Shown: positions 39,288 through 64,000 of the stretch, in pieces
Numbering within the stretch: the first letter of the stretch is position 1
How the letters are laid out: the number at the start of each line of letters is the position of its first letter
Source of the DNA: Rhodococcus sp. KBS0724
Lineage (GTDB): Bacteria > Actinomycetota > Actinomycetes > Mycobacteriales > Mycobacteriaceae
DNA: 64,000 bases
Assembly: GCF_005938745.2 (NCBI RefSeq)
Contig: NZ_VCBX02000001.1
Location: forward strand, 5,346,501 to 5,410,500
Reading direction: 5' to 3'
The notes under the pieces: model-generated
Database searches by the model: none
Seen by the model: the letters and a program-made list of their open reading frames with translations, nothing else
Told to the model about the DNA's origin: nothing
Position numbers and translations under genes: made by a program

Positions 39288-39303
39288 GAGGGAGGCACGG
39301 GAG

Positions 39304-40487: not shown

Positions 40488-40488
40488 G

Positions 40489-41488: not shown

Positions 41489-41492
41489 CGAC

Positions 41493-42463: not shown

Positions 42464-42789
42464 CCGGCGAACCGGAGAATGTCGAGCGCGAGGATGTCGA
42501 ATACGAGTCGTCGCTGCGGCGACGGATCGACGCCGATCCTGAGTCAGTCGAGCGCGGCCTCGTCGCCTTGGTACTCACCTTGGTCGAACTGTTGCGACAG
42601 TTGATGGAACGACAAGCCTTGCGACGCGTCGATGTCGGCGATCTGACCGACGCGCAGATCGAACGCATCGGCACCACGCTGATGCTACTCGAGGAGAAGA
42701 TGGAAGAGTTGCGCGAGCATTTTGATCTGACACCCGAAGATCTCAACATTGATCTCGGCCCCCTCGGACCACTTCTTGCCGACGACTGA
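42460..42789 (+). CDS. gvpK: Gas-vesicle protein GvpK
   Basis: 109 residues from GTG 42460 (GTGA overlap with gvpS). GvpK pattern: RRIDADPESVERGLVALVLT, LVELLRQLMERQALRRVD, LTDAQIERIGTTLMLLEEKM and a C-terminal LTPEDLNIDLGPLG. It is last in the operon and ends four bases before the convergent methyltransferase gene. Confidence 0.93.
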   Translation: MTGEPENVEREDVEYESSLRRRIDADPESVERGLVALVLTLVELLRQLMERQALRRVDVGDLTDAQIERIGTTLMLLEEKMEELREHFDLTPEDLNIDLGPLGPLLADD

Positions 42790-48416: not shown

Positions 48417-49667
48417 ATGCCGCCATCTCCCAAAGCATCTCTTCGCGTCAGTCATCTGGACGTGATGCACAGTCGTACACGGATCACGTCCGTCATCGGT
48501 CCCGTACATCTTCCTGACGACGCCACCATCGCCGCTCGACTTCGCACGATGGCCGAAGCGGGTCCACACACGCGGCTCGGCCTCAGGCCGTCGGCACACG
48601 ACAATCGGTGGACATTCGATCCCGAATCGTGCGCCCCAGAAGTAGTTCGGCTCGATCCGCCGACTTCCCCGATGGAACTGCTCGACTCGGCGTCACAGGT
48701 CTCGCAGGTTTCGCGGGAGGACCGTCCCACCACCGTCACCGTGGCCGGAAACTACCTGCGCACCGACCACAACCACGGCCTCGGCGAAGTCGCCCTGACA
48801 CTCATGATGAACGAGGTCATCCTCGGCATGATCGACCCTGCCGATCCACGAGTATGGCAACCGTCGCGTGCCTCGCGCTCGGGGATCACCACTGCGGCTC
48901 TGCGCACCTACGGTTCGGATCCTCGACGTGCGTGGGCGCTGCGTCGCTCGCTCGATCGGACGCCTCGTCCTGTGCCGTCCGGGCCGGTGGAACCGTGGAC
49001 ACCCGACCGCACTGCTGCCGTGGTCACCACCGATCCCGACACAGTTCGGTCCTTGCGCACGTGGCGAGATCAGAATCTTCCGTCGGTGTCGATGTATGCC
49101 CTGACCGCTTCGGTTCTGCACCGCGCGCTGGCGGACGCCGGACTCACGATCAACCCCGTTGCAACAGTGACGCTCGATGCGCGTCGTTACCTTCCGGCAG
49201 GTCGAGTTCCGTTGGGAAACTTCGTCTCCGGACTCGAATTCGATCTGGGCGCGAACCCCACCCCAAGTCGCATCAACGAGGTCACGTCCGATGCTGTAGC
49301 AGCGGGGCGGCCGGTTGCGAACCTGGCCTTGAACACGATGCGGACCCGAATCGGATTGCGAATCAACAATTCCGGCGCATATCCGATCAGTCGACCACAA
49401 GATCCTCAGGCCCAGCTGCTGTTTTCGAGCATCGGTCCGGTGCCTCGACAGAATCAGGTCCCGTGGCTCGCCGGCGCATCGCCGTTCTACTCGGCGCACA
49501 ACGACCCGGTCGGCCCAGAGGGCATAACCCTCACCTGGGCGATCGTGGAAGGTGCGGTCGCGACGACGGCGTCGTTCCACGGAAACGTGTTTCCGCAGGC
49601 CGCGGTGACGGCGGCTCTGGAGTGCGCTGCCACCGATCCTTTTGCCTTTCTGTCTTCGGTTAACTGA
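48417..49667 (+). CDS. Condensation/acyltransferase-like protein (tentative)
   Basis: 416 residues starting three bases after the epimerase gene (ATG 48465 is an alternative start). No signal peptide or membrane helix. The layout (an N-terminal half ending TDHNHGLGEVALTLMMNEVI, then TVTLDARRYLPAGRVPLGNF, VSGLEF and a late LFSSIGPVP region) recalls the CoA-dependent acyltransferase/condensation fold, but the HHxxxDG motif is altered to DHNHGLGE. It may add an acyl group to a sugar or lipid. This assignment is by overall pattern only. Confidence 0.45.
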   Translation: MPPSPKASLRVSHLDVMHSRTRITSVIGPVHLPDDATIAARLRTMAEAGPHTRLGLRPSAHDNRWTFDPESCAPEVVRLDPPTSPMELLDSASQVSQVSREDRPTTVTVAGNYLRTDHNHGLGEVALTLMMNEVILGMIDPADPRVWQPSRASRSGITTAALRTYGSDPRRAWALRRSLDRTPRPVPSGPVEPWTPDRTAAVVTTDPDTVRSLRTWRDQNLPSVSMYALTASVLHRALADAGLTINPVATVTLDARRYLPAGRVPLGNFVSGLEFDLGANPTPSRINEVTSDAVAAGRPVANLALNTMRTRIGLRINNSGAYPISRPQDPQAQLLFSSIGPVPRQNQVPWLAGASPFYSAHNDPVGPEGITLTWAIVEGAVATTASFHGNVFPQAAVTAALECAATDPFAFLSSVN

Positions 49668-49763: not shown

Positions 49764-51779
49764 TTGACAGCGCAGACCCACCTGGTCCCCGGGATCACCG
49801 TTCTGATCTGCTGCTACACCCACGACCGTCTGGAACAGCTGTCCACCGGCATTCGCAGCGCCCAGGCACAGCTTCGCCCCGACGAGGACGAACTGATTGT
49901 GATCGTGGACCACAACGACGCGCTCCGCGCAGATCTGGTTGCCGCCTTCCCTACCGGCATCACCGTCATCCCCAACGCGGCGACCCCCGGCTTGTCCGGC
50001 GCCCGCAACACCGGCGCCCAGGCAGCGCGGACCGAGTTGGTCGTGTTCGTCGACGACGACGCCATGCTGCGCCCCGGGGCCCTCGACAGCGTCCGCGGAG
50101 CCTTCTCCGACGCTTCGGTTGTCGCTGTCGGAGGTGCGGTACACGCCAAATGGGAAGCGGGAGCACCACCGTCGTGGTTCCCGGACGAATTCGGGTGGGT
50201 CGTGGGCTGCGACTACCGCGGGCTTGCCGCCGACGGCGCCGAGATCCGCAATCCGATCGGCGCCGCCATGGCTGTCCGCCGCGCCGAATTGCAGAAGATC
50301 GGCGGTTTCTCCGACCGTCTGGGCCGTGTCGGAACAGTGCCGGCCGGTTGCGAGGAAACCCTCATGGGAATTGAACTACGACAGCAGTTCCCGGGGTCCA
50401 AAGTTGTGCGGATCGAGGCTTTTGCCGTCGACCACTTCGTTCCCCGCACCCGTAGCACTCTGCGCTACTTCGTCAGTCGCTGCCGCCACGAGGGCCGATC
50501 GAAGGCGGTGCTGTCCGACATGGTGGGCGGCAAAGCCGGACTCGCGGCTGAGCGCAGTTTTGTCATCCGCACCCTGAGCACCGGAGTGTTCCGCTATCTC
50601 CGCAGCGCAGTAACGGGCGACGGTATCAGCGCGGTGTCCCGCATTCTTGTCATGATCCTCGGTTTGTTTGTCACAGCGTCAGCCACTGCGGTAGCAGCCA
50701 TGCGCCAAGGCTCTCGCACCACAAAGTCGGAAGTACAAGTAGCAGTGGAAAAACCGGAAGAAGCACCCGTCACCGCCGACGAATTGATCACCGTCGTGAT
50801 TCCCACCGTCGGTCGTGATTCGTTGCTCAACACCGTGCGCACGGTGCTGGCTCAGGACCACCGCAATATCGAATTGCTGGTAGTCGACAACCGTCCCCAT
50901 CGAAGTGAGGCCGCACGGATCTTGGCCGGCATCGACGATCCCCGCCTGTCGATCCTGGAACAGCCCATCCCCGGAGTCTCGGCGGCCCGAAACAAGGGGC
51001 ATCAGAACGCCAGCGGCCGTATCGTTGCCTTCACCGACGACGACGCAGTCCCCGATCCCGGGTGGATCTCGGGGATTGTCACCAGCTTCCACGCCGACAA
51101 CACCGGTTCCGTCGGAGTCGTGACCGGCCGCGTGCTCGGTACCGAATCCAACACCCGCGAACAAGCCTGGTTCGAGGAAGCGAAGGTCTTCGACAAGGGC
51201 GAGGTAGCAACGCTCTGGGCGATGAACTCTCGCGAGGAGACTGCGCTCGGCACAGACGGCACACTCGGCGAGTACGGTCCCCACGGTCCGTTCTTCCCCT
51301 ACACGGCGGGTGAGTGTGGATCGGGTAACAACATGGCCTTCCGCGGGGCCGCTCTGCACGCGATCGGCGGATTCGACGAGCGCCTCGGCACCGGCACTCC
51401 TACCCACGGCGGTGAGGACCTCGACGCTTTCCGCGCAGCACTCCTCGACGGTTGGGCTATTGCCTACAATCCGAATGCCGTTGTGCGGCACTACCACCGT
51501 GACAACATGCCGGAACTTCGGGTGCAAAGTTACGGGTACGGCACCGGCATGGCCGCGTCGTTGACCAAGTTCGTCCTGTCCGGATCACCGCGTCCGATCC
51601 TCACGCGCATCCCTCGGGGTATCCACATGCTGATATCGCCGACGTCGACGAAGAACGTCGACTTCCCGTCCGACTGGCCACTGCACCTGCGAGTGCTCGA
51701 AGCGCTGGGTTACCTGGCCGGCCCGGTCCTCTTCGTTCGTAGCCACCTGAACGCGCGTCGGGTCGGTGCCGGGCGATGA
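49764..51779 (+). CDS. Tandem fusion of two GT2 glycosyltransferases
   Basis: 671 residues from TTG 49764. The first GT2 domain (about 5-250): ITVLICCYTHDRLEQLSTGI, LSGARNTGAQAART, the DxD-type VVFVDDDAML and GAAMAVRRAEL. A linker with a hydrophobic stretch (about 290-315) follows. The second GT2 domain spans about 335-600: ITVVIPTVGRDSLLNTVRTV, GVSAARNKGHQNASG, AFTDDDAVPDPGW and GSGNNMAFRGAAL. Both nucleotide-sugar motifs look intact. It probably adds two sugars in sequence to a growing glycan. The stop overlaps the next start (ATGA), the first of three such overlaps. Confidence 0.88.
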   Translation: MTAQTHLVPGITVLICCYTHDRLEQLSTGIRSAQAQLRPDEDELIVIVDHNDALRADLVAAFPTGITVIPNAATPGLSGARNTGAQAARTELVVFVDDDAMLRPGALDSVRGAFSDASVVAVGGAVHAKWEAGAPPSWFPDEFGWVVGCDYRGLAADGAEIRNPIGAAMAVRRAELQKIGGFSDRLGRVGTVPAGCEETLMGIELRQQFPGSKVVRIEAFAVDHFVPRTRSTLRYFVSRCRHEGRSKAVLSDMVGGKAGLAAERSFVIRTLSTGVFRYLRSAVTGDGISAVSRILVMILGLFVTASATAVAAMRQGSRTTKSEVQVAVEKPEEAPVTADELITVVIPTVGRDSLLNTVRTVLAQDHRNIELLVVDNRPHRSEAARILAGIDDPRLSILEQPIPGVSAARNKGHQNASGRIVAFTDDDAVPDPGWISGIVTSFHADNTGSVGVVTGRVLGTESNTREQAWFEEAKVFDKGEVATLWAMNSREETALGTDGTLGEYGPHGPFFPYTAGECGSGNNMAFRGAALHAIGGFDERLGTGTPTHGGEDLDAFRAALLDGWAIAYNPNAVVRHYHRDNMPELRVQSYGYGTGMAASLTKFVLSGSPRPILTRIPRGIHMLISPTSTKNVDFPSDWPLHLRVLEALGYLAGPVLFVRSHLNARRVGAGR

Positions 51780-54061
51780 GCACCGATGTAGACACCGACA
51801 CAGACATCATCGATCTCCGGCCGGGCAAGCCTGCATCACCGCTCCCCCGCTACGGGTGGAATCCTCGTATCTGCCTGAGAATCGGCGTCGCAGTTGCGGT
51901 TGCGATGTTCGTGCTCAACCTGGCCGTGGCAGCCGACATCGCCGACGTCGTGCCCGCACCGATCCGCCTGCTGATCGCGCTGGCCGGTATGACGCTGGTT
52001 CCCGGACTGCCCGTTGTTGTTGCACTGCGCATTCCAGGCCGCGCACTCTCCGCTGCCTTGATCGTGTCGGTATCTTTGGCCGTCGCCATCCTGGCCAGTC
52101 AGCTGACGATGGTGGCGCAGTGGTGGAGTCCGCTGCGCACTCAGTTCATCTTGGCGCTCCTCGCGCTAGCACTCTGCGCCGCCGCCTCGCGAACGGTGCC
52201 GTCCGACTACCGGCTTCCGAGCAGCGACCTTCAACGACTACGAACCTTCGACCGAAGCCGGGCAATCGGTTTCGGCGCACTGCTGATCGCCCTCATCCTG
52301 TTCGTGGTCGCCGCCGCGAGGTTGGATGTCACCGCGGCCGGTCACTTCGGCATCATCACCGAAATCGGGCCGATCTACGTGCTCGGGCTGGTAACGCTCT
52401 GCGGCACAATTGTGTACACGCTGCGTCGACGCCTGATCGACCACGTGTTGATGGCGGCAAACATCGTCATGCTGATCGTCTACACGACGATGCTCGTGCC
52501 GGTCTCCACCGGTGAGACCACCGTGCCGGTCGCGTTTGTACATCGCGGTTTCATCAACATTCTTGCCCAGAGCGGCACCCTCCCCAACTCGATCGACGCG
52601 CGATTCAGTTGGGCCGGATTCTTCTCCGCCGGTGCACATCTGATCACTGTCGCCGATGTTCCCGACGCGACCGTGCTGCTTCTGTGGGCGCCGCTCTACA
52701 TGGGTGCACTACTGGCGTTTCCGCTGTACGCCATCGCGATTGCCATTACCGGCCGAGTTCGGCTCGCCTGGCTGGCAGTCGTGATCTACCAACTCTTCAA
52801 CTGGTACCAGCAGGATTACTTCGCCCCGCAGGCTGTCGCGACGATCTTCTACACCACCATCCTCGCGACGCTGCTGTGGCAGCTGCGGCGCTCACCTCTG
52901 CCGGTAATCGGTTCCGGGATCGGCCGATTCATCGTTTCGGCGCCGCGGCGCACCCCGGGGTTTGTTCCCGGTTTCGATTCACTCCGAACACTCGCGGTGG
53001 GCGCGGTGCTACTGCTCCTCATCGTCGCCACCACCGTCAGTCATCAGATCACCCCGATCCTGGTCATCGTCGTCCTCGCATCGTTCTCGTTGTTCGGAGC
53101 AACGCGATATCGGACCCTGTGGCTGGCAGCGGGTCTGGTGTTCGCAGCGTGGTTCAGCTACGGCGCCACCGATTTCTGGATCGGTCACCTCCAGTCGATC
53201 TTCAGCGAGATCGGGCAGGTTGGCAATTCAGTGGGCCGCGGTGTCAGTGAACGCATCACGGGCGACCCCACGTATCAGCAGATGCAGTACTTGCGCATGG
53301 GTGCGTCCGGGCTACTCGCAATGGTGGCTTTTGTAGGTTGGGTGCTCTCTCGCCACCGACGAACCTGGCTCGTAGCCGGAGCAGTTGCCGCAGCTCCCTT
53401 CTCGCTTGTCCTGCTGCAAAGCTACGGCGGCGAGATGATCATCCGCTGCTTCGTTCTCGCCTCCCCGGTCCTGGCTCCCTTTGCCGCCATCGCCCTCGCC
53501 CATGCCGGCAACCAGATTCGTAAGGCACTGAACCCGGTCTCGTCGGGAAATCACACGCAGCCGAGCAAGACGCGACCGTCGCACTGGGTTGGGGCCGCCG
53601 CGGCAACCTTGGCGTTGGTCTCGCTTGGATTGCTCTTGACCACAAACCGCGGACTGAACACCGCATTCGAAGCGTCGACAACCGATCAGGTCACCGTCTC
53701 GGACCAGTTCATCGCCGCGGTTCCGCCGTCGACCACGATCATGACCTGGAGCCACGCCTCTCACACCAATGGTGTGCGACGGACCCTGGACCCGCTCGGG
53801 CCGCGAATGATGTTCGTCGACAGCTACGACTGCGCCAACGACCTCAGCGGTTGTGCCCTGGCCCGTGACCCGATGTACGTGTACGTCACCAGTCAGGGCA
53901 TCGGGATGGCGTTGTTGCAGCAGGGAATGACGCAGGAGTATCTCGACGCCGAACTGGCCGCTATCATCGACAGCGGCCTCTACGTTCCGATGATCGAAAA
54001 GCCGAGCATCACGATCCTGCGCCGTGTCGACGCACCCGCTATCGAATTCGAGTCCCCATGA
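51776..54061 (+). CDS. Large polytopic membrane protein, GT-C or polymerase-like
   Basis: 761 residues with about 14 hydrophobic segments between 30 and 620, then a soluble C-terminal part (about 640-761). A loop after the seventh helix (SGTLPNSIDARFSWAGFFSA) resembles the acidic first loops of GT-C mannosyl/arabinosyltransferases, but I see no clear DxD there. It could be a lipid-linked-sugar glycosyltransferase or a Wzy-like polymerase for the glycan handled by the neighbouring GT2, flippase and GH16 genes. ATGA overlap at both ends of the gene. Confidence 0.6.
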   Translation: MSTDVDTDTDIIDLRPGKPASPLPRYGWNPRICLRIGVAVAVAMFVLNLAVAADIADVVPAPIRLLIALAGMTLVPGLPVVVALRIPGRALSAALIVSVSLAVAILASQLTMVAQWWSPLRTQFILALLALALCAAASRTVPSDYRLPSSDLQRLRTFDRSRAIGFGALLIALILFVVAAARLDVTAAGHFGIITEIGPIYVLGLVTLCGTIVYTLRRRLIDHVLMAANIVMLIVYTTMLVPVSTGETTVPVAFVHRGFINILAQSGTLPNSIDARFSWAGFFSAGAHLITVADVPDATVLLLWAPLYMGALLAFPLYAIAIAITGRVRLAWLAVVIYQLFNWYQQDYFAPQAVATIFYTTILATLLWQLRRSPLPVIGSGIGRFIVSAPRRTPGFVPGFDSLRTLAVGAVLLLLIVATTVSHQITPILVIVVLASFSLFGATRYRTLWLAAGLVFAAWFSYGATDFWIGHLQSIFSEIGQVGNSVGRGVSERITGDPTYQQMQYLRMGASGLLAMVAFVGWVLSRHRRTWLVAGAVAAAPFSLVLLQSYGGEMIIRCFVLASPVLAPFAAIALAHAGNQIRKALNPVSSGNHTQPSKTRPSHWVGAAAATLALVSLGLLLTTNRGLNTAFEASTTDQVTVSDQFIAAVPPSTTIMTWSHASHTNGVRRTLDPLGPRMMFVDSYDCANDLSGCALARDPMYVYVTSQGIGMALLQQGMTQEYLDAELAAIIDSGLYVPMIEKPSITILRRVDAPAIEFESP

Positions 54062-54255
54062 GTGTTGCTATCTTCTTCTTTCTGGCCGCGGGCGTTCTCC
54101 TGGTCGCCGGCGTGATCCTGCGTGAACGCGAGGTTCCTGCCACGGGCAGCATTGGCCGCGGACACGCCGCCCAACTGATCAGCCTTGCGCTTGCAGTCTG
54201 TGTGATCACCGCCGCGACTTTGACTTTCGTACGACTGATCGCAATGGCTGTATGA
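54058..54255 (+). CDS. Small two-helix membrane protein
   Basis: 65 residues: a hydrophobic helix at about 3-20, a short charged loop (REREVPATGSIGRGH) and a second helix at about 37-60. It overlaps both neighbours by ATGA, so it is certainly co-translated with them. No known family; it may be an accessory subunit of the large membrane protein. Confidence 0.7.
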   Translation: MSVAIFFFLAAGVLLVAGVILREREVPATGSIGRGHAAQLISLALAVCVITAATLTFVRLIAMAV

Positions 54256-55157
54256 GCCGTCGACGGCGCCGCACTGCCGGAGCGATCGCGGCGCTCGCCC
54301 TCGTCGCGTCATGCACGTCGTGCACGATCGCAACCGATTCACCGGCCGTAAACCCTTGCGCGCCGGAATCGGCACCTGGTGGAAAAGCGCTTCCACAAGG
54401 TGACCTGCAAGGGTGGAAGCAGATCTTCAGCGATGATTTCGACGATTGTGATCTCGGATCGAACTGGGGTACATACAGCGGTCAGCCCGGCGGCAATCCG
54501 AACAGCACGTGGGACGATTCGATGGTGCAGGTCGACGACGGTCTGCTCAACCTGAATTCGCAACGAACCGATTCGGGATGGATCACCGGTGGGGTATCGA
54601 ACTATCCGGTCACCCAGCAGTACGGACGCTGGGAGATCCGCATGCGTGCCGACAACAGCGACGACATCTCGTACCACATGCTGCTCTGGCCGCAGAACGA
54701 GAAATGGCCACCGGAAATCGATTTCGCGGAAAGCGTCAGCGGCACCCGCGACGAGATGTCCGCCTTCCTGCACTGGGTCGACGACACAGGCAGCAATGAC
54801 AAAAAGGGTGTATCCACGGGCGGAGATTTCTCCGAGTGGCACACCGTCGGGGTCGAGTGGGGACCGGGCATCGTCCGCTATCTGCTCGACGGCAAGGTCT
54901 GGGCCGAAGCACACTCGGAGACAATGGTTCCGGACGTCCCCATGTGGCTCGGCCTGCAAGCCGAGGCCGGAGCGTGCGAACGTCGCGCGGACTGGGGAAT
55001 GACCCCGTGCGCCGAGGCATCCGAGCAGCGCCCGGACACCGTTGCCGTACAGGTGGACTGGGTCACGGTGTATGCACCGGACTTCGACGAGTTGGAGAAG
55101 ATGCAGAAATCCGGTTACTACGATCCGTCACCGGACGCCATTCAGTTCACTGACTGA
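54252..55157 (+). CDS. GH16 glycoside hydrolase lipoprotein
   Basis: 301 residues. N-terminal Arg-rich segment, hydrophobic core and lipobox near LVASC, so anchored at a cysteine around 21-24. GH16 fold: WKQIFSDDFDDCDLGSNWGT, YGRWEIRMRADNSDDISYHM, catalytic box E155-I-D157-F-A-E160 (complete), and WHTVGVEWGPGIVRYLLDGK. A surface glucanase or transglycosylase, translationally coupled to the glycosyltransferase genes. Its 3' end overlaps the convergent flippase gene by 16 bases. Confidence 0.88.
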   Translation: MSRRRRRTAGAIAALALVASCTSCTIATDSPAVNPCAPESAPGGKALPQGDLQGWKQIFSDDFDDCDLGSNWGTYSGQPGGNPNSTWDDSMVQVDDGLLNLNSQRTDSGWITGGVSNYPVTQQYGRWEIRMRADNSDDISYHMLLWPQNEKWPPEIDFAESVSGTRDEMSAFLHWVDDTGSNDKKGVSTGGDFSEWHTVGVEWGPGIVRYLLDGKVWAEAHSETMVPDVPMWLGLQAEAGACERRADWGMTPCAEASEQRPDTVAVQVDWVTVYAPDFDELEKMQKSGYYDPSPDAIQFTD

Positions 55158-56461
55158 GATTCGCTCCGCATAGCAAGAACCGCACGGGTCAGCGGCACAA
55201 CAAGGATGACGGCAGACACGGACTCGGCCACGATGTACGCCCAGCCCAAAGCAACAAGTCCGTGGTCCTCGATCAACGCCAGACTGATTCCGAGAATCAG
55301 CGCCGCATTACAGATCTGCACTGTGACGGCGAGACGCAAGCGGCGTCGCACTCGGGCAACCGCGGTGTACGCGGCCACGATTGTCGCGGGAATCAGCGCA
55401 ATCGCTGCAAGGCGGAGCAGCGGAGTCCCCTGCTCCGCGTACGGCTTACCGACGATCTCCAACATCACGGGCGCGATCACCGCAAACAGAAGAACACCAC
55501 TCAGGGCGACAGCACCGAGTATCGCAAAGAATCGAAGGGTCAGACCGTACAGGCGCGTCGGATCACTACTTGCCGACGCGGCAACATAAGGCCCGAGCAG
55601 CATGGTCATCAAGACCAGTACGGCTGTGACCAGGGACCAGGAGATTGCAAAGTACGCGTTGGCGTCGGCACCCATGCGTGAGACGACGATCAACGGGAGT
55701 AGAAGTGGCGCAAGCGCACTGACCACGTAGATGCCGTAGGAACCGGCTAGGTAGTTGCCGATCTCCCGTCGAGGTGGCAACTGCGACGCCGCGCTCAAAT
55801 AGTCGGGAGTACGTAGCCGCCTGGCCACCATCACACCCAGGATGAGTGCGGCAATCAACGCCGGCAGCGTCCACGTCCAGATGATGGTGAGATGTGAAGC
55901 GGTGAACGCCAGTGCTGCCGCAAGCACCAGTTTGACGATCGCGTGCGCGACGTTCTTTCCTGCGGCCCAACCGGCTTCGCGGAACGCCACCGCTGTGTGG
56001 TCGAGCATGGCAAACGCGGAAAACACCACCACGACCAGCGGGAAAAGCCAGTACTCGAACGGATGGAGAAACATCTCCGACGTCGGGCCAAGCAACAGGA
56101 ATCCGCCGCCCAGGAGAAGGCCGCCCACCGCGCCGACGGCAAACCCCGCCCCGACCATCGACCTCGAGCGTTGCCCGGCAAGCGGAAGGAACCGTTCGAA
56201 GAGACCGCCGATACCGAAGTTGCCGAAAGCCGAAAGCATGGTGGCCGTGGTGATCACCGCCGCGGCAGCACCGACTTCACGGGCCGGGTACAGGCGTCCG
56301 AGGATTGCCCAGTAGACAAGACCCACGACACCGGTCAGGAGCGCCGAAACGGTGAGCGCCAAACTGTTTCGCTCGAGGCTGTGGCCCCGTCCCTCGGTAC
56401 TGGATCCACCTGCAATTGCCGCCTCCGGCGATACGACGGTGTCGCCGGAGGGGGCGGTCAC
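55142..56461 (-). CDS. Wzx-like polysaccharide flippase (MOP superfamily)
   Basis: 439 residues, about 12-14 membrane helices, starting at GTG 56461 which overlaps the stop of the upstream GT2 gene (GTGA). O-antigen/polysaccharide flippase pattern: NSLALTVSALLTGVVGLVYWAILGR, FGIGGLFERFLPLAG and later paired helices. It would move a lipid-linked oligosaccharide across the membrane. Opposite in direction to the glycosyltransferase/GH16 operon but ending inside it. Confidence 0.85.
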   Translation of the reverse strand: MTAPSGDTVVSPEAAIAGGSSTEGRGHSLERNSLALTVSALLTGVVGLVYWAILGRLYPAREVGAAAAVITTATMLSAFGNFGIGGLFERFLPLAGQRSRSMVGAGFAVGAVGGLLLGGGFLLLGPTSEMFLHPFEYWLFPLVVVVFSAFAMLDHTAVAFREAGWAAGKNVAHAIVKLVLAAALAFTASHLTIIWTWTLPALIAALILGVMVARRLRTPDYLSAASQLPPRREIGNYLAGSYGIYVVSALAPLLLPLIVVSRMGADANAYFAISWSLVTAVLVLMTMLLGPYVAASASSDPTRLYGLTLRFFAILGAVALSGVLLFAVIAPVMLEIVGKPYAEQGTPLLRLAAIALIPATIVAAYTAVARVRRRLRLAVTVQICNAALILGISLALIEDHGLVALGWAYIVAESVSAVILVVPLTRAVLAMRSESQSVN

Positions 56462-57318
56462 AGTGTCAGTTCGCGGACGTCAGCCTGCGCGGTCTTCTTC
56501 TGGATGGTCTTGGTCTCGCGCCAGTGCTGCCATTCCTGACCGATGGTGCGCAGCACTCGCATGCCGTCGCTGTAGGCGTTGAGGTTGCTGCGGCCATGGA
56601 TTCGAGGGCCCTCGAAGCTGCCGACCTCGACGATGTTGAGGCCGCTCGTCGCAAGCCGGACGTTGATGACGGTCTCGATCTCGAATCCGTCGCCCCACTG
56701 TGCGCGCTGGTACTCGACCGGCGCCAGTTCGAGCAACGGGATGTGCTTGCGCCAGAAGGCGTTGTAGCCGTAGCAGAGGTCGGAGAACTTGGTTCGGAAA
56801 ATGAGGTTGACCAAACCGTTGAGGCCCTTGTTGCCGAAGTTGCGCAACCCGGTGATGTCGGAACTGCCACCGCGACCGACAAACCGGCTTCCCTTGGCGA
56901 GGTCCGCCCCGCCGACCAGAGCCTCGACGAAGAAGGGAATCTCAGCGGGATCTGTCGAACCGTCGGCGTCGATGGTGACGATGATGTCGCCGGTCGATGC
57001 CTCGAATCCGCAGGCCAGGGCGTTGCCCTTGCCGGAACGGGTCTGCACGACAAATGTTGCATCCGGCCACAATTCACGGGCCACCGCGACGGTGTCGTCG
57101 GTGGAATGGCCGTCGACGAAGACGATCTGATCGATATCTGTAGGCATCCGCGACGCAACGAACGGCAAGTTCTTTGCCTCGTTCATGGCCGGGACGATGA
57201 CGGAGACAGTCGGACGGTTTCCACCCTTACCGGATTCCGGTTCGGACGGTGTCGCTCCGGTGATGTCGGCGGCCGGGCCACCTGTCGGTATCGAAGTACT
57301 CACGACGATCGTCTCCAC
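56458..57318 (-). CDS. GT2 glycosyltransferase (dolichyl-phosphate mannosyltransferase-like)
   Basis: 286 residues from GTG 57318, or GTG 57303 which has GGAG nine bases upstream. GT-A fold: VSVIVPAMNEAKNLPFVASR, IVFVDGHSTDDTV, GKGNALACGFEASTGD and IVTIDADGSTDPAEIPFFVE (DxD). Later FRTKFSDLCYGYNAFWRKH matches polyprenyl-phosphate sugar synthases. No C-terminal membrane helices, so it relies on lipid substrate or partners. Coupled to the flippase gene. Confidence 0.9.
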   Translation of the reverse strand: METIVVSTSIPTGGPAADITGATPSEPESGKGGNRPTVSVIVPAMNEAKNLPFVASRMPTDIDQIVFVDGHSTDDTVAVARELWPDATFVVQTRSGKGNALACGFEASTGDIIVTIDADGSTDPAEIPFFVEALVGGADLAKGSRFVGRGGSSDITGLRNFGNKGLNGLVNLIFRTKFSDLCYGYNAFWRKHIPLLELAPVEYQRAQWGDGFEIETVINVRLATSGLNIVEVGSFEGPRIHGRSNLNAYSDGMRVLRTIGQEWQHWRETKTIQKKTAQADVRELTL

Positions 57319-57574: not shown

Positions 57575-58762
57575 GTGCACACTCAGGTTGCGATCATCGG
57601 TGCCGGACCCGCCGGACTGACTCTCGCCGCTCTGCTTCACCGCCAGGGTATTTCCTCCATTGTTCTCGAGCGTCACGACCGCGCGTACATCGAGACCCGA
57701 ACCCGAGCCGGCATTCTCGAACAACCCACCGTCGACCTCATGCACGAAATCGGTGTGGGCGACGGAATCACGCGTGAAGGCATGGTTCACAACGGGTTCT
57801 ACGTTCGATTCGACCGAACCACACATCATCTCGATTTCACCAAGCTCGTCGGCGGTCACGCCACGGTCTATCCGCAGCAGAAGCTGGTTGCCGACCTCGT
57901 CGCGGATCGAGTCGGAGGCGGCGAGCCCCTACTGTTCGAAGCCTCGGTGCGTTCGATCGACACAACCACCGACGGCGCCCGCCTGCAGGTCGAGACGCCG
58001 GAGGGTCTGATCGAGATCACCGCGGACTTCGTCGCCGGCTGCGACGGATTCCACGGGGTGAGTCGCGCGCACCTTCCCGCCGACTCGGTCCGAGAGTTCG
58101 AGAGAACCTATCCTGTTGCGTGGCTCGGCATCCTGGCGCACACCGCCCCCACCACCCCCGAGGGCATGTACTGCGCACACGAGAACGGCATCTCGGTGCA
58201 CAGCATGCGCGGGCCGAACATCACCCGCCAGTACCTGCAGGTTCCCGCGGATACCGACTTGAGCGACTGGTCTGACGAACGCATCTGGGACGAGCTGACC
58301 CTCCGTAGCGCCAGCGATGATTTCCCGGTACTCGAGCGCGGCGAGATCTTCGACAAATCACTGGCCCCGTTGCGCTCGTACGTCTGCGAAACAATGCAAC
58401 ACGGACGGCTTTTCCTGCTCGGCGACGCCGCCCACATCGTTCCCCCTACCGGCGCAAAGGGTCTCAATCTTGCAGTGTCCGACGCCTGCACGCTGTCCTA
58501 CGCACTCGGTGCGCATTACCTGACCGGCGAACGCGAGCATCTCGACGCGTATTCGAGCACGTGCCTCCCCCGAATCTGGAAGGCGCAGCACTTCTCCGCA
58601 ATGCTCACCGAAACCCTGCACTCGCTGTCGGAAGATCCGCTGGATTGGCAGCTGCGACGCGCTCGCCTGACCAGGTGGGTGGAGTCGGAGCACGAGCAGT
58701 CCGCACTGGGCGAGGTCTACCTGGGCTTGCCCTTCCCCAGCCCCTGGCAGTTCCCGGCATAA
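57575..58762 (+). CDS. pobA: 4-hydroxybenzoate 3-monooxygenase-like flavoprotein (PobA family)
   Basis: 395 residues from GTG 57575 after AAAGGAA; PobA is normally 394. FAD fold QVAIIGAGPAGLTLAALLHR, TRTRAGILEQPTVDLM, the CDGFHG loop and the FAD-ribityl motif GDAAHIVPPTGAKGLNLAVS are diagnostic for the PobA branch. In PobA this enzyme makes protocatechuate from 4-hydroxybenzoate with NAD(P)H and O2. Here it sits next to aminohydroxybenzoate genes, so the true substrate may be 4-hydroxybenzoate or a 3-amino-4-hydroxybenzoate derivative (inference). Confidence 0.87.
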   Translation: MHTQVAIIGAGPAGLTLAALLHRQGISSIVLERHDRAYIETRTRAGILEQPTVDLMHEIGVGDGITREGMVHNGFYVRFDRTTHHLDFTKLVGGHATVYPQQKLVADLVADRVGGGEPLLFEASVRSIDTTTDGARLQVETPEGLIEITADFVAGCDGFHGVSRAHLPADSVREFERTYPVAWLGILAHTAPTTPEGMYCAHENGISVHSMRGPNITRQYLQVPADTDLSDWSDERIWDELTLRSASDDFPVLERGEIFDKSLAPLRSYVCETMQHGRLFLLGDAAHIVPPTGAKGLNLAVSDACTLSYALGAHYLTGEREHLDAYSSTCLPRIWKAQHFSAMLTETLHSLSEDPLDWQLRRARLTRWVESEHEQSALGEVYLGLPFPSPWQFPA

Positions 58763-58777
58763 CAGGGATCAGGTTTT

Positions 58778-59524
58778 TCAGAATCGAATCGGCCGCGGAA
58801 GTTCGGGCAACCGGATGCCGAACTCCGCGGCTAGTACGGCAAGCGCTTCGTCGTCGTCCAGTTCGCGAGCACTGCGCAGCGCTCCGTCCGTGACGGCGAG
58901 CTGGTATTGCTCATCAGGTTTGCAGGAGAGGGTCTTTCGCACGCTACCCGCCGTCAGGGAGCACACGATTCCGCTGGTGAAACGGGCTAGCGGGGAGGTG
59001 CTGTGCCACCACGCCATTGCCGCAAAATCCGAGAGCGGCTGCGGCGCAGCGTCCGTGAGGTACGCGGCACCGGAAGGAAAGCGCACGTCCCATCCGGCGA
59101 CTGCGCCGGCGTCGATCTGGTGCACTATCGCGTCGCCGCCGAACCCGACGTCGACCAACCACGTCTCGCCGGCGAAGCCGACCACGATCGCGACGTGGCC
59201 CAGTGGGAGCCCCGGCCCATTCGGCGTGACGACCGATGCGCCGACCAGCTGTGCATCGAATCCGAGTGTGCGCAGAGCGTGGGCGAGCAGGCCGTTGAGT
59301 TCGTAGCAGATTCCGCCTCGCTCACGACCGAGGAGCTTCTCCTCGATCGCGGCTACCGAGACCTCCACCGGACGCTTGCGGTGAATATCGAGATTCTCGA
59401 ACGGAATTCGGGCCAGCTGGGCGTCGGCGATCCGTCGCAGCAGAGAAGCGTCGACGGGACTTGTCAGGTTATCGTCGGGCAATCCGACACGTCGGAGATA
59501 CGACTGCATGACCGAATCCGGCAT
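58778..59524 (-). CDS. nat: Arylamine N-acetyltransferase
   Basis: 248 residues from ATG 59524 (MPDSVMQSYLRRVGLPDDN...); upstream in-frame starts lack support. Catalytic triad visible: Cys in RGGICYELNGLLAHAL (about residue 68), His in LGHVAIVVGF and Asp in VDVGFGGDAI. Transfers acetyl from acetyl-CoA to arylamines or hydroxylamines. In Streptomyces griseus a NAT acts on 3-amino-4-hydroxybenzoate, which fits the divergent GriI/GriH genes here. The IdeR-like box is shared with the aldolase gene. Confidence 0.9.
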   Translation of the reverse strand: MPDSVMQSYLRRVGLPDDNLTSPVDASLLRRIADAQLARIPFENLDIHRKRPVEVSVAAIEEKLLGRERGGICYELNGLLAHALRTLGFDAQLVGASVVTPNGPGLPLGHVAIVVGFAGETWLVDVGFGGDAIVHQIDAGAVAGWDVRFPSGAAYLTDAAPQPLSDFAAMAWWHSTSPLARFTSGIVCSLTAGSVRKTLSCKPDEQYQLAVTDGALRSARELDDDEALAVLAAEFGIRLPELPRPIRF

Positions 59525-59619
59525 CACATCACTCTCACGACGCATCTGTCGCATTCGTGGTGCTACCGAGGGCATTTGTGGTGTAGATCGCAGTGTTACC
59601 TCTACCCCGCTTGAATCCA

Positions 59620-59697: not shown

Positions 59698-60534
59698 GTG
59701 TTCACATCACCCAACTATGCGACGTCGCAGTCCTCGGGCGGTAAGTCCATCCGACTCTCCCGGATCAGCGATTACGCTACCGGGCGCACCCTCGTCGTGC
59801 CGCTCGACCACTCGGTCACCATCGGGCCGCTCGGCAAGGCAGACCACGCCAACTCGCTGGTCCGCACTCTGGCGCAGGCAGGCACCAATGCAGTAGTTCT
59901 CCATCGCGGCCGCGCCAAACACGTCGACCCGGCCCACTTCGCGCGCATGGGATTGATCGTCCATCTCTCCGCCGGGACCACCCGCAGCATGGATCTCGAC
60001 TCGAAGGTGCTCGTCGGTGGCGTCGAGGACGCACTGCGCATCGGCGCCGACGCGGTCAGCGTCCACGTCAACATCGGATCATCCACCGAACGCGAGCAAC
60101 TCCTGGATTTCGGCAAGGTCTCCCATGAATGCGAAGTGCTCGGAGTTCCTTTGCTGGCCATGATGTATGCGCGTGGCCCCCTTCGTGGTGATCTCCCCTC
60201 GGATCCCGCAGAACTGATGCACCTGGCCGCGATCGCCACCGATCTCGGGGCGGATCTGGTCAAGCTCGACTACAGCGGCACCCCCGAATCCATGCGTGAG
60301 GTTGCCGAGTCCTGCCCACTGCCCATCTGCGTCGCGGGCGGCCCGCCCCTCGAAGACGTCGACGCGCACGCACTCGAACTCGGCGCCGAAATTCTGAGCT
60401 CAGGTGTCGCCGGGTTGAGCTTCGGCCGTAATGTATTCGAGGCACGCAATCCGTTCGCGGTGGCCTCGGCGTTGGCCCGGATGATGCACTCCCCACAGGA
60501 ATCTGCGTCCCGGTCCGAACTCGAGATCGCCTGA
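59698..60534 (+). CDS. griI: GriI-like aldolase (DhnA-type class I aldolase)
   Basis: 278 residues from GTG 59698; GGAG ends seven bases upstream, and homology begins at GGKSIRLSRISDYATGRTLV. Class I aldolase of the DhnA/ADH-synthase group: VPLDHSVTIGPLG, VHVNIGSSTEREQL, and the Schiff-base lysine in ADLVKLDYSG (about residue 193). GriI condenses aspartate semialdehyde with dihydroxyacetone phosphate in the grixazone pathway; archaeal relatives make the shikimate precursor ADH. The gene directly downstream is a GriH/DHQS-II homologue, so the pair probably makes 3-amino-4-hydroxybenzoate (inference). Confidence 0.87.
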   Translation: MFTSPNYATSQSSGGKSIRLSRISDYATGRTLVVPLDHSVTIGPLGKADHANSLVRTLAQAGTNAVVLHRGRAKHVDPAHFARMGLIVHLSAGTTRSMDLDSKVLVGGVEDALRIGADAVSVHVNIGSSTEREQLLDFGKVSHECEVLGVPLLAMMYARGPLRGDLPSDPAELMHLAAIATDLGADLVKLDYSGTPESMREVAESCPLPICVAGGPPLEDVDAHALELGAEILSSGVAGLSFGRNVFEARNPFAVASALARMMHSPQESASRSELEIA

Positions 60535-60598
60535 TCTTCAGGTTTCACCACCTCGCACGCGCGCGCTTTTTCAACCAACGAAGGGAACGTGTCCAACT

Positions 60599-61783
60599 AT
60601 GGACAGCACTATCGTCACCGACCAGATCCTCCCGGCGACGGGGGCCGGCACGGACAGTCGACGGACACCCATCAGCCGCGAAGGCCACTTCGCCTGGCTC
60701 GACGTCCGTTCGGTCGAGCAGAGCTTGCTGCCGGCAATTGTGCAAGCCGCATTGCACCATCGCATCGACGGCATCCTCTCGGACAAGATCGAGACCTTCG
60801 ACGGCCTTCCCCCCACGGTGCGCCGCATCCTGAGCGTCGACGCTCCACTTGCAGAGGACTTCCCGTACGACGGCGTCGACCTTGTCGTGGTCGCCGATCG
60901 CGCGGACGCACTGTCCCCCAACATCGGCCACACCCCTGATCGTGGCGTCCATGTTGTCGTTTCCGACGCACCAACCCTGCAGTTGGCGTGCGAGGTCGTT
61001 CGTGAGGTGCCGTGGACGCTCCTCACGTTCACCGATCCGACCAAGATCCCGCTCGAGATCGTCATCGCTGCCGCGGAGAACTCCGGCGGACGCACCGTCA
61101 CCACCGTCACCGACGTCGAAGACGCCGAAATCGTGAAGCTCGTCCTCGAGCACGGATCGGACGGACTCCTGCTTGCACCCCGTAGCGCCGACGACGTCGT
61201 CCGCATCGCGCGCATCGTCGATCACCAGATCGAGTCGATGGAGCTCTCCGAACTGGTCGTCACGAAGGTCGAGCACATCGGCATGGGCGATCGTGCATGC
61301 ATCGACACGTGCTCGTTGCTCGAGAAGGACGAAGGCTGCCTGATCGGTTCGTTCTCCACCGGAATGTTCCTCTCCTGCAGCGAGACCCATCCGTTGCCGT
61401 ACATGCCGACGCGTCCCTTCCGCTGGAATGCCGGCGCTGTGCACTCCTACGTGCTCGGCCCGGACAACCGCACGCGCTACGTCAGCGAACTTCAGGCCGG
61501 CCATCCGATCCTCGCTGTCCGTTCGGACGGCAGTGTTCGCGAAGTACGCATCGGCCGCGTCAAGATCGAGAAGCGCCCACTGATCTCGATCACCGCAGTT
61601 GCCCCGAACGGCAAGAACGTCAACGTCATCGCGCAGGACGACTGGCATGTGCGTCTGCTCGGACCCGGTGGCAGCGTCAACAACGTCACCGAACTGGAAC
61701 CGGGCGACAAGCTGCTCGGCTACGTTCCCACCGAGGCGCGCCACGTCGGCCTGCCGATCACCGAATTCTGCGACGAGCGCTAG
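60599..61783 (+). CDS. griH: GriH-like / 3-dehydroquinate synthase II family enzyme
   Basis: 394 residues from ATG 60599. The family signature is complete: VEHIGMGDRACIDTCSLLEK, EGCLIGSFSTGMFLSCSE, THPLPYMPTRPFRWNAGAVH and the C-terminal RPLISITAVAPNGKNVNVIA with QDDWHVRLLGPGG. Archaeal DHQS-II (AroB') makes dehydroquinate; GriH in actinobacteria cyclises the GriI product to 3-amino-4-hydroxybenzoate. Next to a GriI homologue and away from any shikimate gene, the GriH role is more likely. Five bases separate it from the LLM gene. Confidence 0.88.
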   Translation: MDSTIVTDQILPATGAGTDSRRTPISREGHFAWLDVRSVEQSLLPAIVQAALHHRIDGILSDKIETFDGLPPTVRRILSVDAPLAEDFPYDGVDLVVVADRADALSPNIGHTPDRGVHVVVSDAPTLQLACEVVREVPWTLLTFTDPTKIPLEIVIAAAENSGGRTVTTVTDVEDAEIVKLVLEHGSDGLLLAPRSADDVVRIARIVDHQIESMELSELVVTKVEHIGMGDRACIDTCSLLEKDEGCLIGSFSTGMFLSCSETHPLPYMPTRPFRWNAGAVHSYVLGPDNRTRYVSELQAGHPILAVRSDGSVREVRIGRVKIEKRPLISITAVAPNGKNVNVIAQDDWHVRLLGPGGSVNNVTELEPGDKLLGYVPTEARHVGLPITEFCDER

Positions 61784-61788
61784 GAAAG

Positions 61789-62931
61789 ATGTCCGTTCCC
61801 GAGATCCTCTGGTACATCGGAGCAAATGACGGAGAGGTGCCGTGGGATCCACGGCACCGGTTCGAGCCGTCATTTGCCGCTCTGCGCGAGCAGGCGCGCA
61901 CTCTCGACCGGCTCGGCTACTACGGCGCGTTGACAACGGCCCGCGAGCCGATTTCGCTTGTCGCCGATACCGAACGGCTGCGCTTTGTCGTACCCGAGTA
62001 TCCCGGAGTCAAACCACCGGCGTTGCTGGCCGAGGAGGCACAGGTCTTCGACCAGTACTCCGGTGGCCGGTTGATCTACAACCAGGTCAACGGCGCCGAT
62101 CCGGTTTTGGCGCGGTACGGACGATTTCACTCCAAGGACGAGCGCTACGGCGTCTCCGAGGAGTACTGGCCGCTGTTCAAGCGGCTCTATCTCGATGAGG
62201 CGCAGGCGTTCTCGGGCGAGCACTTCGAGCTCGGTCCGCGATACAAGCCAGCCATCGCCGGACCCCGTCAGCCGGACGGGGTTCCGGTCTGGGGCACCGG
62301 GGCCTCTCCCGCCGGAATCTCGCACGCGGCAGAGGTTCTCGACGCCTACCTCATGTTCATGAGTCCGGCCGAAGCGATGTCGGCGCTGTTCACGAAGGTC
62401 AGGGCGGCAGCGTCCGACAGAGGCCGCGAACTGAAGTTCGGGGTACTGGCCAGCGTCATCGTCCGGGAGACGGAAGAGGAAGCTTGGGAACGCTTCGAAT
62501 GGCAACTGTCCCAGACCTCACCGGAATCGGTGCTCAGCACCGCGGACCGCAACCTGACCAGCTTCGGGTTCCCGCCGTTGGCGGAACTCACCTCCGACGA
62601 CGCCCAGGTACGGGCCCGGATCGACGCTCTGCGAGCCGGGCGCCTGCCCACGCGCGCCGAACTCGAATTCGCCCCCAACATGGCTGCCGGGCTGACCACG
62701 TGGTCCGGGGCCGAACCACCCTTCGACATCGCGGGTAAGGGATCCGGCAATTACCTTGTGGGCAGCGCAGACAACGTTGCCGCACGCATGCTCGAGATGA
62801 GCGAGAGTGTAGGCATCGACATCTGGATCCTGTCCGGGTGGCCACTGATCCGCGAGGCTGAAATCACGGCCGAACTGCTGTTCCCCAGACTTGGCGTCAC
62901 GGCTGCGGTCGGAGCCACTGCCGGTGTCTGA
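61789..62931 (+). CDS. LLM-class flavin-dependent oxidoreductase
   Basis: 380 residues from ATG 61789 with AGGAAAG upstream. Luciferase-like barrel of the SsuD/nitrilotriacetate monooxygenase branch: EQARTLDRLGYYGALTT, LRFVVPEYPGVKPPALLAEE, GGRLIYNQVNGADPV, PVWGTGASPAGISHAAEVLD and the late GSADNVAARMLEMSESVGID. FMNH2-dependent oxygenation of a small molecule, possibly N- or C-hydroxylation of the aminohydroxybenzoate. Its stop lies inside the start of the adenylating enzyme gene (8-base overlap). Confidence 0.85.
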   Translation: MSVPEILWYIGANDGEVPWDPRHRFEPSFAALREQARTLDRLGYYGALTTAREPISLVADTERLRFVVPEYPGVKPPALLAEEAQVFDQYSGGRLIYNQVNGADPVLARYGRFHSKDERYGVSEEYWPLFKRLYLDEAQAFSGEHFELGPRYKPAIAGPRQPDGVPVWGTGASPAGISHAAEVLDAYLMFMSPAEAMSALFTKVRAAASDRGRELKFGVLASVIVRETEEEAWERFEWQLSQTSPESVLSTADRNLTSFGFPPLAELTSDDAQVRARIDALRAGRLPTRAELEFAPNMAAGLTTWSGAEPPFDIAGKGSGNYLVGSADNVAARMLEMSESVGIDIWILSGWPLIREAEITAELLFPRLGVTAAVGATAGV

Positions 62932-64000
62932 TCTTTCGACAGTCGGGTCTTTCCTCGCTCCTCGTGGACACGAACCGTTCCCGGTCCCGTGGTCCTCGGT
63001 GCGGGAACGGTTCGAATCCGTTGCGACCGCACTGCCCGACAACATCGCGGTGGTCTGCGGCGGTAGCAGTCTGAGTTATCGGGAACTTCACTCGCGTGCA
63101 GACGCGCACGCTCGGGCCCTAGTCGGTCATCTCGGTGGCGGTCATCTCGGTGGCAGTCAGCCCGGTGGCGATAAACGCCCGGTTGCCCTCGACACCACCT
63201 GCAGCCTCGACTGCGTCGTTGCGCTTGTCTCCGTGCTTCTCTCAGGACATCCGCTGGTGCTGCTCGATTCGCAACTGCCCGAGGATCGGCGCCACAACAT
63301 TCTCACCCGCTCAGGCGCTGGCCGCTTTACTCCGGCCGCGTTGGCTGCGCTGCCTTCGCGTCCCGAGCAGCCTCTGCCCACTGTCACCCAGACAGATTGC
63401 GCAGTATTGCTTTTCACTTCCGGTTCCACCGGCGCGCCGAAGGCCGTCCGCCAGGGCCACCGACTGTGGCTCAACCAGGCTGCGGATTTTCACGCCACGC
63501 TCGGGATCGGTTCCGGCGACCGGATAGGTATGGCGTTGCCGATCAGCTTCGGCGGCGGACTCGACGTAGTGTTCAGTGCCCTGCTCAACGGCGGCGAACT
63601 GCACTTCCTCGATCCCCGGGAAGTGGGTATCGAAGAAGTCCCGCAGTGGATCTCGAGCCAGAACCTGACCACGCTGCACGCCACCCCTTCACTACTGCGC
63701 GCAGTCATGAAGGCGTGCGCCGGCAGCACAACCCTGACCGGCCTCCGGTTGGTCACCACGTGCGGTGAGGCCGTGCACGGCGACGACGTGAGACGGCTCC
63801 GCACATTGCTGAGCCCAATTGCGTCGTACTGCAATCTGTCTGGTTCCTCCGAGACCGGCAACCTCGCGTTCAACGAGTTCCCCCCTGGCCGCGAGGTTCC
63901 CGACCGGGTGCTGCCCGTCGGTGTGGTGGCTGCCAACAAAGTGGTGCGGTTGCTCGGCCCCGACGGCGGCGATGTGGCAACAGGTGAGGTCGGCGAAATT
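62924..64000 (+). CDS. AMP-forming adenylating enzyme (ANL superfamily), 3' truncated
   Basis: The frame from GTG 62924 is open to the window end (359 codons, partial). Core motifs: SYRELHSRADAHARAL, the P-loop-type A3 TSGSTGAPKAVRQG and the A5 region YCNLSGSSETGN. It probably activates a carboxylic acid, most simply the aminohydroxybenzoate made by the upstream genes, for transfer to CoA or a carrier protein. An in-frame triple repeat near residues 68-82 gives GHLGG-GHLGG-SQPGG. Any carrier or condensation domain lies beyond the window. Not listed as a closed frame because no stop is in view. Confidence 0.85.
   Translation, partial: MSDLSTVGSFLAPRGHEPFPVPWSSVRERFESVATALPDNIAVVCGGSSLSYRELHSRADAHARALVGHLGGGHLGGSQPGGDKRPVALDTTCSLDCVVALVSVLLSGHPLVLLDSQLPEDRRHNILTRSGAGRFTPAALAALPSRPEQPLPTVTQTDCAVLLFTSGSTGAPKAVRQGHRLWLNQAADFHATLGIGSGDRIGMALPISFGGGLDVVFSALLNGGELHFLDPREVGIEEVPQWISSQNLTTLHATPSLLRAVMKACAGSTTLTGLRLVTTCGEAVHGDDVRRLRTLLSPIASYCNLSGSSETGNLAFNEFPPGREVPDRVLPVGVVAANKVVRLLGPDGGDVATGEVGEI
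63125..63169. repeat. 15-nt tandem repeat inside the adenylating enzyme
   Basis: Three 15-base units (63125-63139, 63140-63154 identical; 63155-63169 diverged) encoding Gly-His-Leu-Gly-Gly twice and a variant once, between the core strands of the enzyme. Confidence 0.85.

Follow-up and report, generated by a model that had tools for sequence, protein, structure and literature searches.

The window analysed here comprises 64,000 nucleotides (C1:5346501-5410500) of the 7.25 Mb genome of Rhodococcus sp. KBS0724 (G000), and it ends within an operon encoding a GriI/GriH-type pair (a DhnA-type aldolase and a 3-dehydroquinate synthase II (DHQS-II) homologue), a luciferase-like monooxygenase (LLM) and a protein with adenylation, peptidyl carrier and thioesterase domains (A-PCP-TE). 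We read this operon as a cassette for 3-amino-4-hydroxybenzoate (AHBA) that has become part of a mycolata locus for a lipid-linked glycan and probably serves to decorate the glycan, an interpretation held at slightly below even confidence. It is solely from the gene neighbourhood that we infer attachment of the aromatic group to the glycan. The closest named relative at the locus is Rhodococcus globerulus, whose GriH is 99% identical.

An operon with a GriI/GriH-type pair

The core of the operon consists of four genes:

about 59698 to 60534, plus strand: g49, GriI-type DhnA aldolase (PF01791, 3.4e-37; NF005556, 277.4 bits against a cut-off of 241)
60599 to 61783, plus strand: g50, GriH-type DHQS-II homologue, probable AHBA synthase (PF01959, 1e-103; NF002625, 482.9 bits against 375)
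61789 to 62931, plus strand: g51, LLM-type flavin monooxygenase (PF00296, 8e-35), 5 bases past the stop of g50
62924 to 65485, plus strand: g52, A-PCP-TE tridomain protein of 853 aa, ending past the window at C1:5411985 (PF00501, 8e-43 within the window; PF13193, PF00550 and PF00975)

An earlier sequence-only reading of the window had described an adjacent DhnA-type aldolase and DHQS-II homologue, an LLM gene after a 5-base gap and an adenylating enzyme with an 8-base overlap, and this arrangement was borne out by the list of open reading frames and by the families found. It had also taken the operon to be cut by the window end; indeed, g52 runs to 65485, after which g53 and g54 complete the operon. 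For the four-gene set g49-g52, open reading frames of 278-394 aa together with the E-values exclude chance. The overlap with g51 follows from a GTG start of g52 at 62924, and another start is possible. Gene calls inside and outside the window were made with a simple codon-usage script, so that starts or fused frames may be wrong; calls are doubtful at loci L017, L028, L183, L185 and L186, and poor at L214 and L215.

The aldolase g49 matches MJ0400 (2qjg) at 1e-57 and keeps, within VK and MMY, both residues aligned to what we take to be the Lys and Tyr positions of that enzyme. It falls below the cut-offs of the ADH synthase equivalog TIGR01949 (244.3 against 299.45 bits) and of the BagB/FevI exception family (260.9 against 500 bits). 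The DHQS-II homologue g50 scores 347 bits against PF01959 (gathering cut-off 22), and a sequence search found no relative of it with a solved structure. Grouping with archaeal enzymes had been named beforehand as an outcome that would speak against an AHBA function; in a comparison of profiles only, g50 reached 424 bits with the BagC/FevH AHBA model against at most 248 bits for models named 3-dehydroquinate synthase II, which we take to be archaeal. The scores lie far under the cut-offs of the 3-dehydroquinate synthase II equivalog models, and the BagC/FevH exception-family cut-off is likewise missed (423.6 against 750 bits). Synthesis of AHBA by g49 and g50 is a well-supported prediction from homology.

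The host genome encodes a single PF01959 protein. A close GriH relative was present in 4 of 28 genomes of the genus, and GriH was found in 10 of 201 genomes of the family and, at 1e-30, in 32 of 397 of the order. In a scan that covered 84,980 species with a single genome apiece, 398 GriH relatives were detected, and 80 loci were kept. Within these, GriH identity was 66-99% in the first 20 loci and 50-56% in the other 60, actinobacterial loci that carry the pair with an aldolase 42-52% identical to g49. In a GriH tree of 86 tips (83 distinct), 26 mycolata tips (23 distinct) were monophyletic with support 1.0; the tree was midpoint rooted and included 80 of the 398 relatives and no archaeal sequences, so that other branches may be missing. 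The mycolata group also shares an extra conserved N-terminal segment.

Glycan genes on both sides of the operon

The genes flanking the operon are the following:

48465 to 49667, plus strand: g40, stand-alone protein with a condensation-domain fold (AF2 model, pLDDT 86.9; Foldseek; no Pfam match)
49764 to 51779, plus strand: g41, double glycosyltransferase of family GT2 (PF00535 in two stretches; AglG/MftF-like below cut-offs)
51776 to 54061, plus strand: g42, polytopic membrane protein, possibly of GT-C fold (no Pfam match; AF2 pLDDT 63.8)
54252 to 55157, plus strand: g44, GH16 protein (PF00722)
55142 to 56461, minus strand: g45, Polysacc_synt-type flippase (PF01943, 23.4 bits against a cut-off of 28.2)
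56458 to 57318, minus strand: g46, GT2 protein resembling polyprenyl-phosphate-sugar synthases (PF00535; AglJ-like below cut-off)
57575 to 58762, plus strand: g47, PobA-like flavin aromatic hydroxylase (NF006091, 492 bits against a cut-off of 351)
58778 to 59554, minus strand: g48, arylamine N-acetyltransferase (NAT; PF00797)
65482 to 66384, plus strand: g53, Core-2/I-branching glycosyltransferase (PF02485), sharing a GTGA overlap with g52
66381 to 67691, plus strand: g54, flippase-like membrane protein, with a 4-base ATGA overlap with g53
past g54, minus strand: g55 and g56, GT2 genes (gene map)
past g55 and g56, minus strand: g57, exo/endonuclease/phosphatase-family protein (gene map)

The upstream glycan locus spans 47.4-57.3 kb and encodes an epimerase, g40, the double GT2, the large membrane protein, the GH16 protein, a flippase and a further GT2; g47 and g48 sit between it and the AHBA operon. 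The best match of g46 in the PDB is dolichol monophosphate mannose synthase (2e-14). The four top Foldseek matches of g42 were DPY19/PglB (E 0.06-0.12, on a weak model), a hint of a GT-C or oligosaccharyltransferase-like fold. With its AglG/AglJ-like GT2s and weak GT-C likeness, the region 49764-57318 could possibly encode a monophosphate-lipid-linked glycan pathway. While g54 has no PF01943 match, three of six flippase relatives scanned pass the 28.2-bit cut-off, among them a relative of g45 (L026:6580-7824, 28.4 bits), and the orthologues of g45 and g54 in G003 are 36-37% identical to each other over 406 aa. Neither the flippases nor g53 received a name from NCBIfam.

Extension of the sequence past 64 kb, as the sequence-only reading had advised, yielded carrier proteins (the PCP of g52 and the free protein g58) as well as a thioesterase, the branching glycosyltransferase and the flippase-like gene. 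That reading had proposed a metabolite and a comparison of gene order with grixazone, cremeomycin, nataxazole and manumycin-type clusters. A metabolite of that sort was not supported, or the proposal was incomplete: most of the surrounding genes are glycan genes, and Pfam results for the neighbours g38-g62 contained no tyrosinase, diazotase, CreD/CreE-like or ketosynthase domain. The product-defining genes would appear to speak for a glycan and not for a free metabolite.

Two clusters lie further away. Past g57, on the minus strand, are the gene of the free carrier protein g58, genes of the major facilitator superfamily (MFS) and for a binding protein, and a pair of large nonribosomal peptide synthetase (NRPS) genes, which make up a siderophore-type cluster at window-equivalent positions 70644-94442 (L002, L003), beyond the glycan genes. 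At the other side, a gas vesicle cluster occupies 38280-42789 of the window, with Pfam matches to Gas_vesicle (39304-39705 and 41060-41488) and GvpL/GvpF (39705-40487 and 41493-42263).

Conservation of the glycan neighbourhood

To define the neighbourhood, fixed identity and length thresholds were applied to each query, and a locus was scored as having a glycan neighbourhood when at least 3 of 11 glycan queries matched within 10 kb; g45 and g54 are paralogues and may match the same gene. The first 20 of the 80 kept loci, the top group, were compared with the other 60. All of the closest 20 belong to mycolata (Rhodococcus, Gordonia and Mycobacterium/Mycolicibacterium). A glycan neighbourhood was present at 17/20 top-group loci and at 0/60 others. 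The A-PCP-TE gene (17/20), a flippase gene (16/20) and the GT2 gene g46 (16/20) were each found at none of the 60. The top group further contained the aldolase at 20/20, PobA at 16/20, LLM at 11/20 and NAT at 4/20 loci; the contigs of L025, L026 and L027 end inside the flank, which lowers the neighbour counts. At these thresholds the aldolase was the only query found at the other loci (60/60). Below them, the distant loci showed NAT-like proteins (25-34%) in 7, PobA-like proteins (25-27%) in 4 and adenylation-domain or ligase matches to g52 (23-35%) in 27, as expected for pathways with ligases and oxygenases of their own.

The order of g49-g52 is the same in L011-L014, and other top-group loci either lack the LLM gene or have a flippase gene in between. 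A flippase gene stands between GriH/LLM and A-PCP-TE at eight loci of Gordonia and Mycobacterium (L015, L016, L017, L020, L022, L027, L028 and L030), and glycosyltransferase genes occur inside the operon at some Rhodococcus and Gordonia loci. In Gordonia tangerina (G356, L018) the AHBA genes lie with g40, g46 and LLM on contig C24, one A-PCP-TE gene lies within a glycan locus on C22 and another lies with NRPS genes on C5. Separately, L185 (8282-18863, G257) has two griH copies; about 7 kb separates them, and GT2 and membrane glycan genes occupy the interval.

The A-PCP-TE protein and the accessory enzymes

The proposal that the operon builds and activates AHBA was upheld as far as the GriI/GriH-type pair accompanied by an adenylating enzyme is concerned, whereas action of the adenylation domain on AHBA is something we infer. 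It is likely that g52 adenylates an AHBA-type acid and keeps it bound as a thioester. Its pocket code is GGDHTCLNL, in which G replaces the residue that we number D235 in amino-acid-activating domains.

Relatives of the A-PCP-TE protein are numerous (of 7993 candidates scored, 1204 proteins matched at 1e-40) and were detected in 13/28 genomes of the genus at 1e-80 and in 33/201 of the family at 1e-120. All 10 family genomes with GriH are among these 33 (Fisher 4e-9; the Fisher tests on GriH co-occurrence carry no correction for kinship). In 8 of the 10 the A-PCP-TE gene adjoins the AHBA genes (G000, G003, G014, G025, G115, G464, G481 and G490); in the remaining two it was found in a separate glycan locus (one genome) or only with NRPS genes (one genome).

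Other A-PCP-TE genes were also noted. The host has a second, orphan copy (G000:C1:4208950-4211406, L143), which by eye lies among housekeeping-like genes; its pocket code, GATHVYWVV, recurs in 13 fetched rows (10 distinct genes) and in one database protein. At L144, L168, L169, L171, L175 and L177 an A-PCP-TE gene occurs near ABC-exporter-like genes and an NRPS gene, a recurrent cluster that in most of these cases also has GT2-like genes (by eye and BLAST).

Two oxygenases accompany the pair. In an alignment to 1d7l, g47 keeps the substrate-binding and active-site residues of p-hydroxybenzoate hydroxylase (PHBH), in what we take to be its numbering Y201, S212, R214, R220, Y222 and Y385, and it scores below the PHBH equivalog TIGR02360 (414.2 against 538.7 bits). 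The closest solved relatives of g51 are of the SsuD type (2.7e-42). An assignment as an SsuD-type sulfonate monooxygenase was rejected: the score is 179 bits against a cut-off of 510, and the catalytic residues are replaced, those aligned to SsuD C54, R226, H228 and Y331 (numbering presumed) not being kept.

A condensation-fold protein and glycan loci without AHBA genes

The AF2 model of g40 matches condensation and epimerization domains of NRPSs, including VibH (Foldseek E about 3e-13, TM score 0.5-0.6), as well as PapA5, and g40 is a candidate acyltransferase. In place of HHxxxDG the protein has the motif xHGLG(E/D), in which the second His is present in 22/22 sequences and the first is N, S, C, D or E. 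Pfam Condensation gave no match up to E 10 in g40 and five homologues scanned. The homologue P0137 bears the name 'Condensation domain-containing protein' in a source.

In an earlier search, 18 g40 homologues were found among 7997 candidates scored, and those with named hosts came largely from hosts with g52 homologues. The idea that g40 is an AHBA-specific enzyme was overturned by a profile search, which detected it in 51/201 family genomes, including all 10 with GriH (Fisher 5e-7), and by gene maps of g40 without AHBA genes. Maps were fetched for 14 places, 3 in GriH genomes (L216, L217, L219) and 11 in others. At 7 of these 11, g41, g42, g46 and a flippase gene lie beside g40 (L207, L209-L214; at L214 g40 itself was placed by the profile search). 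L220 has g41, g42 and g46 with no flippase match, L218 has g41, g42 and a flippase gene up to the contig end, L208 has g40 alone, and at L215 the gene calls were poor. None of g47, g49, g50, g51 and g52 was shown at any of the 11 places. These maps suggest that the glycan locus is a wider unit to which the AHBA cassette and A-PCP-TE are an addition in some lineages, and that g40 need not be an AHBA transferase.

At the AHBA-free loci L207 and L209-L212 there is, in addition, a 533-591-aa protein with two alpha/beta-hydrolase regions, which at L209 resembles the exosortase-system hydrolases 1 and 2 below cut-off.

Weighing the explanations

As the AHBA cassette appears to be an addition to a wider glycan locus, decoration of an existing glycan fits better than an independent metabolite. 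At rather less than even confidence we propose specifically that a surface or secreted glycan of mycolata is esterified or amidated with 3-amino-4-hydroxybenzoate or 3-amino-4,5-dihydroxybenzoate, which a single A-PCP-TE protein would activate and which would be joined to a polyprenyl-linked sugar ahead of flipping. In this scheme g49 and g50 would convert aspartate semialdehyde and dihydroxyacetone phosphate into AHBA, like GriI and GriH, a step strongly indicated by homology. The oxygenases g47 and g51, absent in some relatives, may then introduce oxygen at the ring or the amine, one example of a product being 3-amino-4,5-dihydroxybenzoate. It is likely that g52 would adenylate the acid and hold the thioester on its PCP, from which either its thioesterase or g40 might move the aroyl group onto a sugar of the polyprenyl-linked glycan. 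Finally, the flippases g45 and g54 could move the glycan across the membrane for transfer or polymerisation. Such a pathway would yield a glycan, secreted or at the cell surface, that bears aromatic groups of the aminophenol or catechol type.

Several observations weigh against decoration of a glycan. The glycan locus with g40 occurs without AHBA genes, and at L021, L023 and L029 no glycan query matched at threshold. L021 (Mycolicibacterium sp. S2-37) and L023 (Mycobacterium sp. 852013) have only a PobA-GriI-GriH trio with an MFS gene, followed at L021 by a RibD gene. At L029 (Gordonia sihwensis) the AHBA genes are rearranged and accompanied by A-PCP-TE, ABC-like and NRPS genes as well as by a 648-aa gene partly similar to the GT2 g55. 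In G527 the AHBA genes lie at a distance from the glycan locus, and the sole A-PCP-TE gene detected is of the NRPS type. LLM is missing from 9/20 and PobA from 4/20 top-group loci. In genomes without GriH, A-PCP-TE relatives are orphans or stand beside NRPS/ABC-like genes. The pocket codes at AHBA loci, GGDHxCxNL and GANxxTWxx, are quite different, with GADHSCWDL at L029, and similar codes occur in genomes without GriH (e.g. G495, G101 and G503). The code was accordingly rejected as an AHBA signature, and with several codes at AHBA loci the substrate is not fixed by it.

Some of these points suit a free, secreted AHBA-derived small molecule, such as a pigment, metal chelator or antibiotic, with the glycan genes as mere neighbours. 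Here A-PCP-TE would join AHBA units to each other or to a small acceptor, and flippase-like proteins would export the product. AHBA pathways elsewhere yield free metabolites, as described in four reports (PMC6692506, PMC10179220, PMC10777205, PMC11429834); the trio with an MFS transporter gene and the occurrence of A-PCP-TE enzymes apart from glycan genes are in keeping with this. However, a glycan neighbourhood retained across Rhodococcus, Gordonia and mycobacteria and lacking at all the distant loci, together with flippase and in some loci glycosyltransferase genes within the operon itself, makes this explanation unlikely, albeit one to be taken seriously.

A use of AHBA, or of a hydroxylated form, as a building block of the minus-strand siderophore-type NRPS cluster is improbable. 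MFS genes, and where the stretch reaches them binding-protein or NRPS genes, do follow the operon in the window genome, L009, L010, L011 and L178 (L009 and L010 read by tblastn), an NRPS gene lies near GriH at L029, and the cluster contains the free carrier protein g58. Yet within flanks of at most 10 kb no match to g61 or g62 was found at L012-L028 or L030, A-PCP-TE carries its own thioesterase and the NRPS genes carry adenylation domains of their own.

PobA and NAT enzymes are often catabolic or detoxifying, which would suit breakdown or detoxification of aminophenols or hydroxybenzoates by PobA, NAT and the flavin monooxygenase. An NAT of S. griseus is described as N-acetylating exogenous 3,4-AHBA (PMC11213898). 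Nevertheless GriI/GriH is biosynthetic, a second PobA elsewhere in the genome is nearer to known PHBH enzymes (462 against 353 bits for g47, to 7on9), and the Pfam results of the neighbours scanned included no ring-cleavage family, so that we regard this explanation as very improbable. Replacement of the ordinary shikimate entry enzymes by the pair, a role that DHQS-II proteins fill in archaea (and PF01959 matches in the control set were confined to 3 archaeal genomes), was rejected outright, since the genome has a class I 3-dehydroquinate synthase gene, aroB (PF01761, 1.9e-43, C1:3119681), where the sequence-only reading had allowed for missing shikimate enzymes, close DHQS-II relatives are restricted to so few genomes of the genus and the equivalog scores are so low.

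Relation to known systems

Streptomycetes are known to build AHBA into pigments, antibiotics and iron binders. If decoration of the glycan is correct, AHBA chemistry would be placed in the cell envelope of mycolata (Rhodococcus, Gordonia and mycobacteria), an NRPS-type activation module would serve polysaccharide decoration and the glycan would gain redox-active or metal-binding groups. The compact, conserved locus is open to genetic tests in a soil rhodococcus. A literature search that left most subscription journals and bioRxiv preprints outside its coverage found no report of AHBA genes joined to a glycan locus.

Adjacent genes for a DhnA-type aldolase and a DHQS-II homologue are likewise found in GriI/GriH (grixazone), AvaI/AvaH, CreI/CreH, BagB/BagC and CmaI/CmaH. 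In contrast to the relatives of GriI/GriH, the window locus belongs to the mycolata group and has a glycan neighbourhood, and no phenoxazinone, diazo or polyketide synthase (PKS) genes were seen there. In the ava and cma clusters for avenalumic and p-coumaric acid, an AMP-forming enzyme is described as activating AHBA and a carrier protein as receiving it (PMC10777205). In those clusters the ligase and the acyl carrier protein are separate and feed a type II PKS, whereas at the window locus adenylation domain, PCP and thioesterase are fused and no ketosynthase was seen. With VibH and PapA5, g40 shares the fold, and HGLG(E/D) holds the place of the second His of HHxxxDG; it differs in the replaced first His, in the lack of a Pfam Condensation match and in its presence in glycan loci that also occur without AHBA genes. 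The haloarchaeal Agl and bacterial lipid-linked glycan pathways, in which we know of no AHBA genes, share with the window an AglJ-like GT2, an AglG-like GT2, a Polysacc_synt-like flippase and possibly a GT-C protein, although the AglJ and AglG matches in the window are below equivalog cut-offs and the GT-C hint is weak.

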